From NCBI RefSeq assembly GCF_032191775.1, contig NZ_CP132507.1, forward strand, positions 1,575,001 through 1,639,000: a stretch of DNA of 64,000 bases, in the 5' to 3' direction. Position numbers and translations under genes: made by a program. The notes beneath the pieces are model-generated. The model was not told where the DNA came from, searched no databases, and worked only from the letters and a program-made list of their open reading frames with translations. Shown here piece by piece: positions 44,685 to 48,059 of the stretch. The first letter of the stretch is position 1, and each line of letters opens with the position of its first letter. The stretch is from Rhodoferax mekongensis. Lineage in GTDB: Bacteria; Pseudomonadota; Gammaproteobacteria; Burkholderiales; Burkholderiaceae_C.

Positions 44685-46856
44685 TTAGTGGATGCGCATG
44701 CCGGGCTGGGCGCCGGGCCAGGGGTTGAGGATGTAGATGCCGGGGTTGGCGCCCTCATCTGCATGGCTGGCCGCCATGACCATGCCTTCGGACATGCCGA
44801 ACTTCATCTTGCGCGGCGCCAGATTGGCCACCAGCACGGTGAGCTGGCCCACCAGCTCTTCGGGCTGGTACATGCTGGCGATGCCGCTGAATACATTGCG
44901 CGTGGTGGGTTGGCCCTCGGCGTTTTTTTCACCCACATCAAGGGTCAGGCGGAGCAGCTTGGTGGAGCCTTCCACAGCTTCGCAGTTCACGATCTTTGCA
45001 ATGCGCAGGTCGATTTTGGCGAAGTCGTCAATGCTGATGGTGGGCGCCAAGGCCTCGCCGCCAGGGGCGTTGGGATCAGCCGGCACAGCCGCAGGAGCGG
45101 ACTTTGCTACTTTTTTAGGAGCTGCTTGCGCAGGTTCCGCGGGCGCTAGAGGCTCTTTGGGTTCAAAAAGTGCGTCCAGCTGCTCGGGGGTCACGCGTTG
45201 CATCAGGTGTTGGTAGGGCTGGATGGCTGCTACGTCGTGCTGAACCAAGTGCCACTCTCGCAGGTTGGCACCTGTAAACGTTTCTACAGCATTTGCCAAG
45301 TTTGGTAATACAGGTGCCAAGTAGCGTGTCAATACGGTGAAGCAGTTGATAAGCACAGAGCAGACTTGGTGCAGTGCTTGGTTATTCGCCGCATCTTTGG
45401 CCAAGTCCCATGGTTTGTTCTGGTCCACATAGGCATTCACCTTGTCGGCCAGTAGCATGATTTCCCGAGTGGCTTTGCTGTAATCGCGGTCTTCATAAAG
45501 GCGACCGATGTTGTCAGCTGCTTCGCGCAATTCATTTACAAGCGCAAAGCCTTGCGAGCCGAAGTCGCTCGTGAGCTTGCCGTCAAAGCGCTTGGTGATG
45601 AAGCCCGCAGCGCGCGACGCAATGTTCACGTACTTGCCAATCAGGTCGCTGTTCACCCGCGCCATGAAGTCGTCGGCGTTGAAGTCGATGTCTTCGTTGC
45701 GTGCCGACAGCTTGGCGGCAAGGTAATAGCGCAGCCACTCGGCGTTCATGCCCAGGCTCAGGTACTTGAGCGGGTCCAGACCGGTGCCGCGGCTTTTGCT
45801 CATCTTCTCGCCGTTGTTGACGGTCAAAAAGCCGTGCACAAACACATTGTTGGGTGTCTTGCGGCCGCTGAACTTCAGCATCGCGGGCCAGAACAGCGTG
45901 TGGAAGGTGACGATGTCTTTGCCGATGAAGTGGTACTGCTCGGTATCACTTGCTGCCATGTATTCGTCAAAGCTGCGGGTGTCGCCGTGCTTAGCCTTGG
46001 GACCGCCTTTGTCGAACCAGTTTTTGAGCGACGCCAGGTAGCCCACAGGCGCGTCCAGCCACACATAGAAGTATTTGCCCGGCGCATCAGGAATCTCGAT
46101 ACCGAAGTAAGGTGCGTCGCGGCTGATGTCCCAGTCGCCCAAGCCTTCGCTCTGGGTGCCGTCCGGGTTGGTGCGTACGGAGAACCACTCTTTGATCTTG
46201 TTGGCCACTTCGGGTTGAAGCTTGCCGTCTTGCGTCCAGTTCTCAAGAAACTCCACGCAGCGCGGGTCCGACAACTTGAAGAAGTAGTGCTCGGAGTTCT
46301 TGAGCTCAGGCTTTGCGCCGGACAAAGCAGAGTAAGGATTGATCAGGTCCGTGGGCGCGTAGACCGAGCCGCAGACCTCACAGTTGTCGCCGTACTGGTC
46401 CTTGGCGTGGCACTTGGGGCACTCGCCTTTGATGTAGCGGTCCGGCAAGAACATGTTCTTCTCGGGATCGAAGAACTGTTCGATGGTGCGCACTTCGATC
46501 AGGCTGCCATCGGCGCGGTCACGCAGGTCGCGGTAAATCTGGCGGGCCAGCTCGGTGTTTTCGGGCGAGTGGGTGCTGTGCCAGTTGTCAAAACTGATGT
46601 GAAAGCCATCCAGGTACTGCTTGCGCCCGGCGGCGATGTTGGCCACGAATTGCTCGGGCGTCACGCCGGCTTTCTCAGCCGCAATCATGATGGGCGCGCC
46701 GTGCGTGTCGTCCGCGCCTACGAAGTTCACCGCGTTGCCCTGCATGCGCTGGAACCGCACCCAGATGTCGGCCTGGATGTACTCCATGATGTGGCCGATA
46801 TGGAAGTTGCCGTTGGCGTAGGGGAGGGCGGTGGTAACAAAGAGTTGGCGAGGCAT
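44685..46856 (-). CDS. metG: Methionyl-tRNA synthetase, dimeric form
   Basis: This 723-residue class I synthetase has the HIGH motif [11 protein letters not shown] (about 16-24) and zinc knuckles [18 protein letters not shown] (about 142-159). KMSKS is in [13 protein letters not shown], and the anticodon-binding helical domain covers about 390-555. A C-terminal EMAP/Trbp tRNA-binding dimerisation domain (about 612-723) begins [17 protein letters not shown]. The linker between the last two (about 560-610) is Ala/Pro/Lys-rich, and its first part is encoded by a copy of the dispersed repeat. It stands alone between convergent or distant neighbours. Confidence 0.97.
45106..45155 (+). repeat. Dispersed palindromic repeat, copy 6 (inside the metG linker)
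   Basis: GCTACTTTTTTAGGAGCTGC then TTGCGCAGGTTCCGCGGGCG and CTAGAGGCTC. It is a near-complete copy lying in frame within metG, encoding about residues 568-584 ([17 protein letters not shown]). Confidence 0.85.
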
Positions 46857-46971
46857 GGGGAATCGACTTTCACAGAGGAACCGGTGATTTTAGTCGGGGC
46901 GGGGATTGCCGTTGTGTAGGCCAGCTTTGTGGTGGGATCAGTCGGGCTGGGCGTTTTGCTACGTAGGTGCC
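46857..46971. other. Spacer upstream of metG, part of a 390-bp gene-free stretch
   Basis: The stretch 46857-47246 between metG and the dienoyl-CoA isomerase gene has no credible gene. Small frames crossing it on both strands run through palindromes and resemble no family. This first part holds the presumed metG leader and promoter; no clear -35/-10 pair was recognised. The rest holds the two hairpin elements listed next. Confidence 0.6.
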
Positions 46972-47059
46972 GGAGCGGGGCGGCTGCCTGTTTTGCTCCG
47001 TGTCCCCCGCGCTGCGCGCTCCTCCTTGACCTGCGCAAAACAGGCAGCCGCCCCACTCC
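46972..47059 (+). repeat. Large hairpin element 1 with conserved loop core
   Basis: GGGGCGGCTGCCTGTTTTGC (46977-46996) pairs perfectly with 47035-47054. Four more pairs lie beyond one mismatch (46972-46975 with 47056-47059). The 38-nt loop reads TCCGTGTCCCCCGCGCTGCG, then CGCTCCTCCTTGACCTGC. The core TGTCCCCCGC..GCTCCTCCTTGACCT recurs in inverted orientation in element 2. Confidence 0.85.
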
Positions 47060-47116
47060 TTAAGTGCTGTGACTTGCAAATATACATAGTTCACCTCGCC
47101 TCGCCTTACTTCGCAG

Positions 47117-47211
47117 CAGCAGGTTGGGGGTGCGTGCCGCAGCGAGGTCAAGGAGGAGCCCGCTGGAGCGGGCGGGGGACACGAGCGGAGGTACGTACCC
47201 CCAGCCTGCTG
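47117..47211 (-). repeat. Large hairpin element 2, same loop core in opposite orientation
   Basis: Arms 47118-47138 and 47190-47210 pair over 21 positions, three of them as G-U pairs if transcribed on plus. The arm sequence differs from element 1, but the 51-nt loop, read on minus, contains TGTCCCCCGC, a CCGCTCCAGCGG hairpin and GCTCCTCCTTGACCT. It ends 36 bp before the dienoyl-CoA isomerase stop, so it may terminate or shield that transcript. Confidence 0.8.
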
Positions 47212-47246
47212 TGAGTCCAGCAAAGACTAAGCGCTAGAAAGGAAGC

Positions 47247-48059
47247 TCAGTCCTTAAACACAGGCGCCCGCTTCTGCATGTTCGCCGTCATCGCCTCGGT
47301 CAGGTCCTGGCTCATCAGCATGGCGGCGTTCCAGGTGGCGATGTAGTTCAGGCTGTCGGCCACGCTGTGGTCGCGGGCGTAGGTGATCATTTCTTTGGTG
47401 CCGCGGATCGACAGAGGCGACTTGGCGGCGATAGTGGCTGCAATCTCCTGCACTCCGGCATACAGCGCCTCGCGGCTTTCAAACACGCGGTTCACCAGGC
47501 CGATGCTCTTGGCTTCTTCGGCTTCCATCTTTCGGCCGGTGTAAGCCAGCTCGCGGGTGATGCCATCGCCCACTAGCTTCGGTAAACGCTGCAAGGCGCC
47601 CACGTCGGCGGTCATGCCGATGTCGATCTCTTTGATGGTAAAGAACGCATCGGCGCTGGCGTAGCGCATGTCCGCGCAGGTGACCAAGTCGATGCCACCC
47701 CCGATGCAGCCACCATGGATGGCAGCCAGCACCGGCTTGCGGCAACGCTCCAGGCTGGTCAGCGTGTCTTGCATGTCCAGAATCATGCGGCGCAGGCTCT
47801 CGCGCATGCGGCCGTCGCAGTCGTTGGCGATCTGCGGGCCGATGCCCATCATCATTTGCAGGTCGATGCCCGCGCAGAACAACTTGCCTTCGCCTTGCAG
47901 CACCGCCACACGCGCCTCTGGCGTGCGGTCCACCCACTCAAAGGCTTGCCGGATCTCTTGCCACATGGTGGCGTTCATGGCGTTGGCTTTGTCGGGGCGG
48001 TTCAGGCGGATGGTGGCAATGTGCGCGTCCAGCGTGACCTTCAGGGTTTCAAACTCCAT
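47247..48059 (-). CDS. Delta3,5-Delta2,4-dienoyl-CoA isomerase (crotonase family)
   Basis: This is a 270-residue crotonase-fold enzyme. The three residues that mark dienoyl-CoA isomerases (Asp176, Glu196, Asp204 of the rat enzyme) are matched with identical spacing by Asp124 (GGGIDL), Glu144 (TIKEIDIG) and Asp152 (TADVGALQRLP). The oxyanion loops are KLFCAGIDLQ and HGGCIGGG. The role is to shift double bonds of odd-position unsaturated acyl-CoA during beta-oxidation. It lies 92 bp downstream of the dienoyl-CoA reductase gene, giving a complete pair for polyunsaturated substrates. A repeat copy sits between the two. Confidence 0.9.
   Translation of the reverse strand: MEFETLKVTLDAHIATIRLNRPDKANAMNATMWQEIRQAFEWVDRTPEARVAVLQGEGKLFCAGIDLQMMMGIGPQIANDCDGRMRESLRRMILDMQDTLTSLERCRKPVLAAIHGGCIGGGIDLVTCADMRYASADAFFTIKEIDIGMTADVGALQRLPKLVGDGITRELAYTGRKMEAEEAKSIGLVNRVFESREALYAGVQEIAATIAAKSPLSIRGTKEMITYARDHSVADSLNYIATWNAAMLMSQDLTEAMTANMQKRAPVFKD

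Follow-up and report, generated by a model that had tools for sequence, protein, structure and literature searches.

Upstream of metG, a gene named from its sequence as methionyl-tRNA synthetase (44685-46856, minus strand), two large hairpins stand in opposite orientation, and the locus raises the question of what these hairpins are and what keeps their pairing and their loops. All positions refer to the window, the whole analysed stretch of 64,000 nucleotides corresponding to bases 1575001-1639000 of the 3.89-Mb single-contig genome of Rhodoferax mekongensis. A sequence-only reading of the window had placed the hairpins in a 390-bp gene-free gap and had described them as having unrelated arms but the same loop core, reversed in one of them. 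The gap is correct, extending from metG to an enoyl-CoA hydratase-like open reading frame (47247-48059, minus strand, also named from sequence), and both hairpins were recovered as described: the arms of element 1 (46972-46996 and 47035-47059, 25 nt) are 96% complementary, and the opposite orientation of the shared cores appears as two inverted repeats, I2 joining 47014-47032 with 47145-47163 and I3 joining 46999-47010 with 47172-47183. The arms, on the other hand, turned out not to be unrelated: they belong to one family, within which they have diverged, and have a weak common consensus, TTTTGCGCA/GGAGCAAAA in subtype A and xxxAGTGA/GAACGGxG in subtype B.

Element 1 (46970-47061, minus strand, 92 nt) belongs to subtype A and consists of a 5' arm, the conserved internal loop, a short tip hairpin and a 3' arm, with its conserved core, GGTCAAGGAGGAG-tip-GGGGGACAC, at 47000-47031 on the minus strand. 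After a 54-nt spacer (47062-47115), which is not conserved among pairs, follows its divergent partner, element 2 (47116-47212, plus strand, 97 nt), of subtype B and with the core pattern at 47146-47182 on the plus strand. The folding energies with flanks are -69.6 and -73.2 kcal/mol, and the E values in the covariance model described below are 1.1e-14 and 2.5e-12, for elements 1 and 2 respectively. The start of metG lies approximately 113 nt from element 1, while the stop codon of the hydratase-like frame lies 34 nt from element 2, which is a typical position for the hairpin family. The site is shared by G345, G349 and other Rhodoferax loci, and in two orthologous loci (L127 and L158, corresponding to 46970-47212 of the window) an extra hairpin-like stretch is found between the two scored elements, giving a core-to-core spacer of 156-160 nt; judged from this stretch, the site upstream of metG seems to accumulate copies.

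It is clear that the two hairpins belong to a dispersed family. The core pattern AGGTCAAGGAGGAGC-N4..24-GGGGGACACG occurs exactly 20 times in the genome while the reversed control pattern does not occur at all, and all 20 copies are flanked by arms that can form a long stem. From 40 copies, aligned without gaps in 96 columns, a covariance model was built that identifies 32 copies in this genome with E values from 1e-18 to 5e-8, and taken together with the 20 exact occurrences against none in the control this places the core pattern far above chance. Core copies lacking arms had been named beforehand as the finding that would speak against a structured element; none were seen, since all 32 genome copies match the whole stem model. 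The fetched loci, which also supplied the context on the genome scale, hold 218 distinct copies. With the covariance model, 27 places were found in G001, and under strict filters 123 of the 294 good genomes, and 67 of the 126 sampled genera of the host family, had at least one copy; five genomes in two further families of the order also match. Plasmid, phage and IMG/VR (viral) collections gave no match to the family, hence there is no sign of carriage by phages or plasmids. Rfam returned nothing above the gathering score, only weak matches to eukaryotic miRNAs and snoRNAs below it, and a literature search with the core sequence, the encoded peptide and palindromic repeats in these genera gave nothing relevant. 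The hairpins form a large and apparently undescribed family that Rhodoferax shares with its relatives. Its novelty is put at risk mainly by two candidate motifs of Burkholderiales and Proteobacteria, Burkholderiales-1 and GUCCY-hairpin, which were flagged as uncertain RNAs and have no Rfam accession (Weinberg 2010, PMC2864571), and which could be the same thing.

Each copy folds as a single strand of approximately 96 nt into a stem of about 26 bp, an internal loop and a short tip hairpin. Going inward, the outer stem of almost free sequence is followed by a 3x3 internal loop, an inner helix of 4 bp (GGUC/GAC-C) with one bulged A, an asymmetric purine-rich internal loop (AAGGAGGA/GGGG) and finally the tip hairpin of variable sequence; the near-invariant purine-rich internal loop reads GGUC AAGGAGGAG ... 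GGGGGAC. Over 157 copies, each position between 3 and 27 nt away from the core is paired in 77-99% of cases, for the most part in more than 90%, and pairing drops to chance approximately 30 nt from the core, which sets the length of the element at about 96 nt. The outer arms are nearly free in sequence, with a median identity between unrelated copies of 23 of 52 positions. The loop, as the sequence-only reading anticipated, is near-invariant across the 218 unique copies, a figure inflated by the selection of loci with the exact core pattern; the covariance-model matches, in which variation was allowed and which include other genera and families, carry the same loop. Among the 218 copies the outermost core pair, G31-C66, covaries (GC in 201, AU in 13, CG in 4, no mismatch), and a non-canonical co-swap from A39/G60 to G39/A60 is present in three, with a fourth case in a distant genome (L299). 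A core variant GGTAAAGGAGGAG, where C34 is changed to A at the cost of one core base pair with the rest retained, was observed in 12 of the 218 copies and is common in other genera (L245, L248, L251, L257 and others).

That the stem is kept by pairing and not by sequence, as had been proposed, is borne out by the 40-copy alignment, where all 26 outer stem pairs show double compensatory changes and 95.3% of the cells are paired. The covariation score is 0.595 compared with 0.155 for shuffled alignments and about 0.1 for slid registers, and none of 500 shuffles reached it. The same is seen at orthologous sites, where 42 groups with 119 copies contain 303 variable stem positions, 111 of them with at least two Watson-Crick pair types; compensatory positions in register number 107, compared with 9-14 in the slid controls. 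The wobble pairs tell which strand is involved. A G-T pair on one strand is an A-C pair on the other, so neither kind of pair should be in excess if the element acted as double-stranded DNA or as a cruciform. On the core strand, stem pairs of the GT/TG type outnumber those of the AC/CA type by 274 to 54, approximately 5:1, and the excess is found irrespective of gene orientation: G-T to A-C is 152:23 in sense copies and 65:12 in antisense copies, it is 44:7 and 12:0 in copies antisense to flanking genes, and it is 129:26 positions within ortholog groups. It follows that one defined strand folds, even where it is antisense to genes. A mutation bias linked to the direction of transcription or replication would not track the orientation of the core, and the data point to selection acting on the folded single core strand, either as RNA or as ssDNA. 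From the constancy of the loop we infer that it is recognised by something. For the upkeep of pairing in settled copies the candidates are selection on each copy, mobility that depends on the hairpin, and arm-to-arm correction combined with selection.

The positions relative to genes were obtained with a simple home-made codon scorer; gene calls are approximate, and the Pfam check covers 17 proteins. Of 109 single copies, 48 (44%) lie inside predicted genes, 42 in sense and 6 in antisense, while the remaining singles and all 65 members of pairs are intergenic, typically 10-60 nt past a stop codon. The length of the core is divisible by three in 48 of 48 in-gene copies compared with 98 of 169 elsewhere (Fisher 3e-10), and 38 of the 48 use one frame, reading AQVKEEPAxRAGDTEQ. 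Genes with in-frame copies include hrpA, mutL, dnaE, thiG and putA, and the hosts checked with Pfam are PutA, ThiG, MutL, DnaE, Mur ligases, a histidine kinase, AraC-type and GNAT proteins, FdhD, a CobB/Q-like protein, an aquaporin and an amylase. Some copies are placed in linkers or N-terminal extensions (MutL, ThiG, GNAT), others within a domain. Neighbouring copies within 300 bp are arranged divergently in 40 cases, convergently in one and never in tandem, with a median spacer of about 50 nt, and 28 of the 40 divergent pairs combine subtypes A and B, as does the pair in the window. A promoter of the element's own in the spacer was considered and discarded, the spacers not being conserved.

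Several observations bear on mobility. A Ramlibacter MAG contains several copies, at loci unrelated to each other, that are identical at 48-51 of 52 arm positions, and in different genomes, too, unrelated loci hold near-identical copies whose similarity stops at the foot of the stem. In fdhD a copy is present in G001 and absent from G000 and G349, the difference being exactly 96 nt; at this site, the only clean empty site and one with diverged borders, a target duplication is not visible. In hrpA an in-frame copy occupies a linker in ten members of the genus, where the linker has 15-24 residues in many others. A gene between copies spaced by 1.5 kb was considered as an autonomous mobile unit and rejected, as the gene in question proved to be hrpA, which holds two copies in frame. 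The same hrpA linker carries different in-frame inserts in relatives without the hairpin element (L278, L280, L282, L287 and L276, L277, L290), two of which look palindromic too, GGAAATTGGGGTCAGA..TCTGACCCCAATTTCC encoding the peptide RKLGSDPDFAKRNSGSDPNFR and CGGGGTACGCCGGGT..ACCCGGCGCGCCCCG encoding RGTPGSSSRSSISSPGAPRA, and the linker seems to be a common landing site for several palindromic families. In a recent burst of copies (L078, L081, L120 and L162) the similarity continues about 20 nt past the 3' side of the stem (CCGTCGCC.ACACAC) and for a few nt past its 5' side, and the mobile unit in this burst may be longer than the hairpin.

Settled copies can also turn around in place. Comparing species at 22 orthologous single sites, we find the core oriented oppositely at 7, for instance in the histidine kinase (L016, L210), DnaE (L007, L026) and GNAT (L014, L214) genes, where the gene strand was confirmed with Pfam. 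The arms are clearly homologous at most inverted sites, at approximately 35-43 of 50 positions, and because the arms are palindromic these identities are compatible equally with inversion of the core only and of the whole element. At one inverted site (L011/L054) the arms are not homologous, and either an independent insertion or a replacement is suggested there. Plastid DNA offers a parallel, in that loops enclosed by short inverted repeats flip likewise (PMC6342102).

We favour, with a probability of roughly 0.6, the reading that the hairpins in the window are a divergent pair from a non-autonomous mobile palindromic family of about 96 nt, distributed in Comamonadaceae and some other Burkholderiales, whose folded single strand is read through the internal loop by a putative trans-acting protein. 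Such a protein would recognise the fold much as REP/IS200-type hairpins are recognised, propagation would pass through a single-stranded DNA (or RNA) stage, and insertion would leave no target duplication. An element of 96 nt amounts to 32 codons and has a core open in all three sense frames, which would make insertions into genes tolerable. Thereafter the stem sequence would drift, pairing being kept by compensatory change through G-U/G-T intermediates, and core inversions would arise by template switching or by recombination between the arms, like the small hairpin inversions of plastids. A purely selfish element would not be expected to preserve its stem at the same site over a series of speciations, and a function of the individual copy is therefore possible. 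Going further, and tentatively, the family may be an element class distinct from both REP/RAYT and MITEs, possessing its own recognition machinery, in which the putative protein would read only the fixed purine-rich internal loop, the 26-bp arms could drift as long as they pair, settled copies would be under long structural selection even in essential genes, and the core could flip without loss.

The main rival, which we regard as unlikely though not negligible, is a structured RNA motif in transcripts, located in 3' UTRs and coding regions, that is bound by a protein, affects mRNA decay or translation, and was spread by duplication and kept for regulation. It would account for the compensatory evolution at orthologous sites, the wobble bias towards one strand, the sense bias in genes (42:6), the position 10-60 nt past stop codons and the near-invariant internal loop with its non-canonical co-swap. 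It is weakened by the strand bias being about equally strong in copies antisense to their neighbours and by the inversions between species, and further by the divergent pairs, which always leave one copy antisense, and by host genes without a common theme. CsrA, a candidate for reading the GGA-rich loop, was rejected, as PF02599 is missing in 26 of 26 genus genomes while control genomes were positive. Intrinsic terminators of similar design, with a family likeness that is only apparent, would explain strong hairpins directly past stop codons, but this is refuted for most copies and has next to no probability overall, as the 3' flanks are not T-rich and no T-tract follows the 3' arm, 44% of the singles are in-frame insertions within genes, and conservation of the loop extends from genus to genus. 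It is also improbable that the copies are neutral palindromes in which mismatch correction and core flipping both result from template switching between the arms, with neither recognition nor selection for single-strand pairing. The arms do evolve in concert, and in-place inversions with the arms kept resemble the flip-flop hairpin inversions of plastids, yet template switching is blind to G-T versus A-C, in conflict with the 129:26 positions within ortholog groups and with a bias independent of gene orientation, and it does not account for a near-invariant loop over 218 copies.

Somewhat less improbable than neutral palindromes, while still rather doubtful, is membership in REP/BIME proper, with a RAYT (Y1 tyrosine transposase) as the mobilising enzyme. 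REP/BIME are dispersed hairpins after genes that form head-to-head dimers of two subtypes, show GT pairing and have occasional copies in open reading frames, also in dnaE and RNA helicase genes (PMC3733652), and the head-to-head dimers with spacers of about 50 nt, the position past genes, the in-gene copies, the G-T pairs and the lack of a visible target duplication in fdhD all fit. Against it, neither end of the 96-column alignment carries a conserved tetranucleotide (GTAG/CGTC), the stem has 26 bp instead of 5-13 bp, the element has 96 nt instead of 20-40 nt, and the conserved part is an internal loop within the stem. A linked RAYT was not found in the inspected genomes, and Y1/RAYT was rejected as the obvious partner: Y1 transposase genes are found both in genomes that carry the hairpin and in genomes that do not, almost every genus member having them whatever its complement of copies, and no copy adjoins an inspected Y1 gene. 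This genome and G001 have a single Y1 gene each, separated from the nearest copy by about 84-100 kb, and in G003, G008, G021 and G024 the listed Y1 genes and the exact-pattern copies either are on separate contigs or have 10 kb or more between them. A lone gene for a 243-residue protein with a weak match to Y1 transposases was noted at L200 (G000:C1:1452570-1452809). Almost every genus member has relatives of it, and a simple scan of this 3.2-kb locus gave no perfect hairpin with at least 9 bp.

Among other known systems, MITEs such as ERIC, NEMIS, RUP and QMITE are likewise short, non-autonomous, palindromic and near genes, but the copies described here have no common terminal repeat and an arm sequence that is free, and the one clean empty site, in fdhD, shows no visible target duplication between its diverged borders. 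Integron attC sites have conserved core sites at both ends of a variable hairpin, whereas here the middle is conserved and the ends vary. A close likeness, by description and not by sequence, is to the Rickettsia palindromic elements, which have about 100-150 nt and are found in frame inside unrelated genes as well as between genes, with a net insertion that keeps the frame (PMC10969869). The in-frame insertion into unrelated protein genes (48 of 109 singles in genes) is shared; the lineage is different, and the near-invariant loop, the fully covarying stem, the divergent dimers, the in-place inversion and the strand-specific fold set the present family apart.

In the hairpins, nature offers a very clear example of conserved pairing combined with unconserved sequence; it extends over hundreds of copies, holds at orthologous sites and is also found within protein-coding genes, and the strand test separates selection on a single strand from selection on the double strand. 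In-place inversion of such palindromic elements has been demonstrated, and a concrete and answerable question is raised, namely which protein reads the loop. Besides Rickettsia, this is a second lineage in which in-frame extension of proteins by a palindromic element is frequent, and annotators should note that segments reading AQVKEEPAxRAGDTEQ in proteins of Comamonadaceae are probably inserted rather than ancestral.
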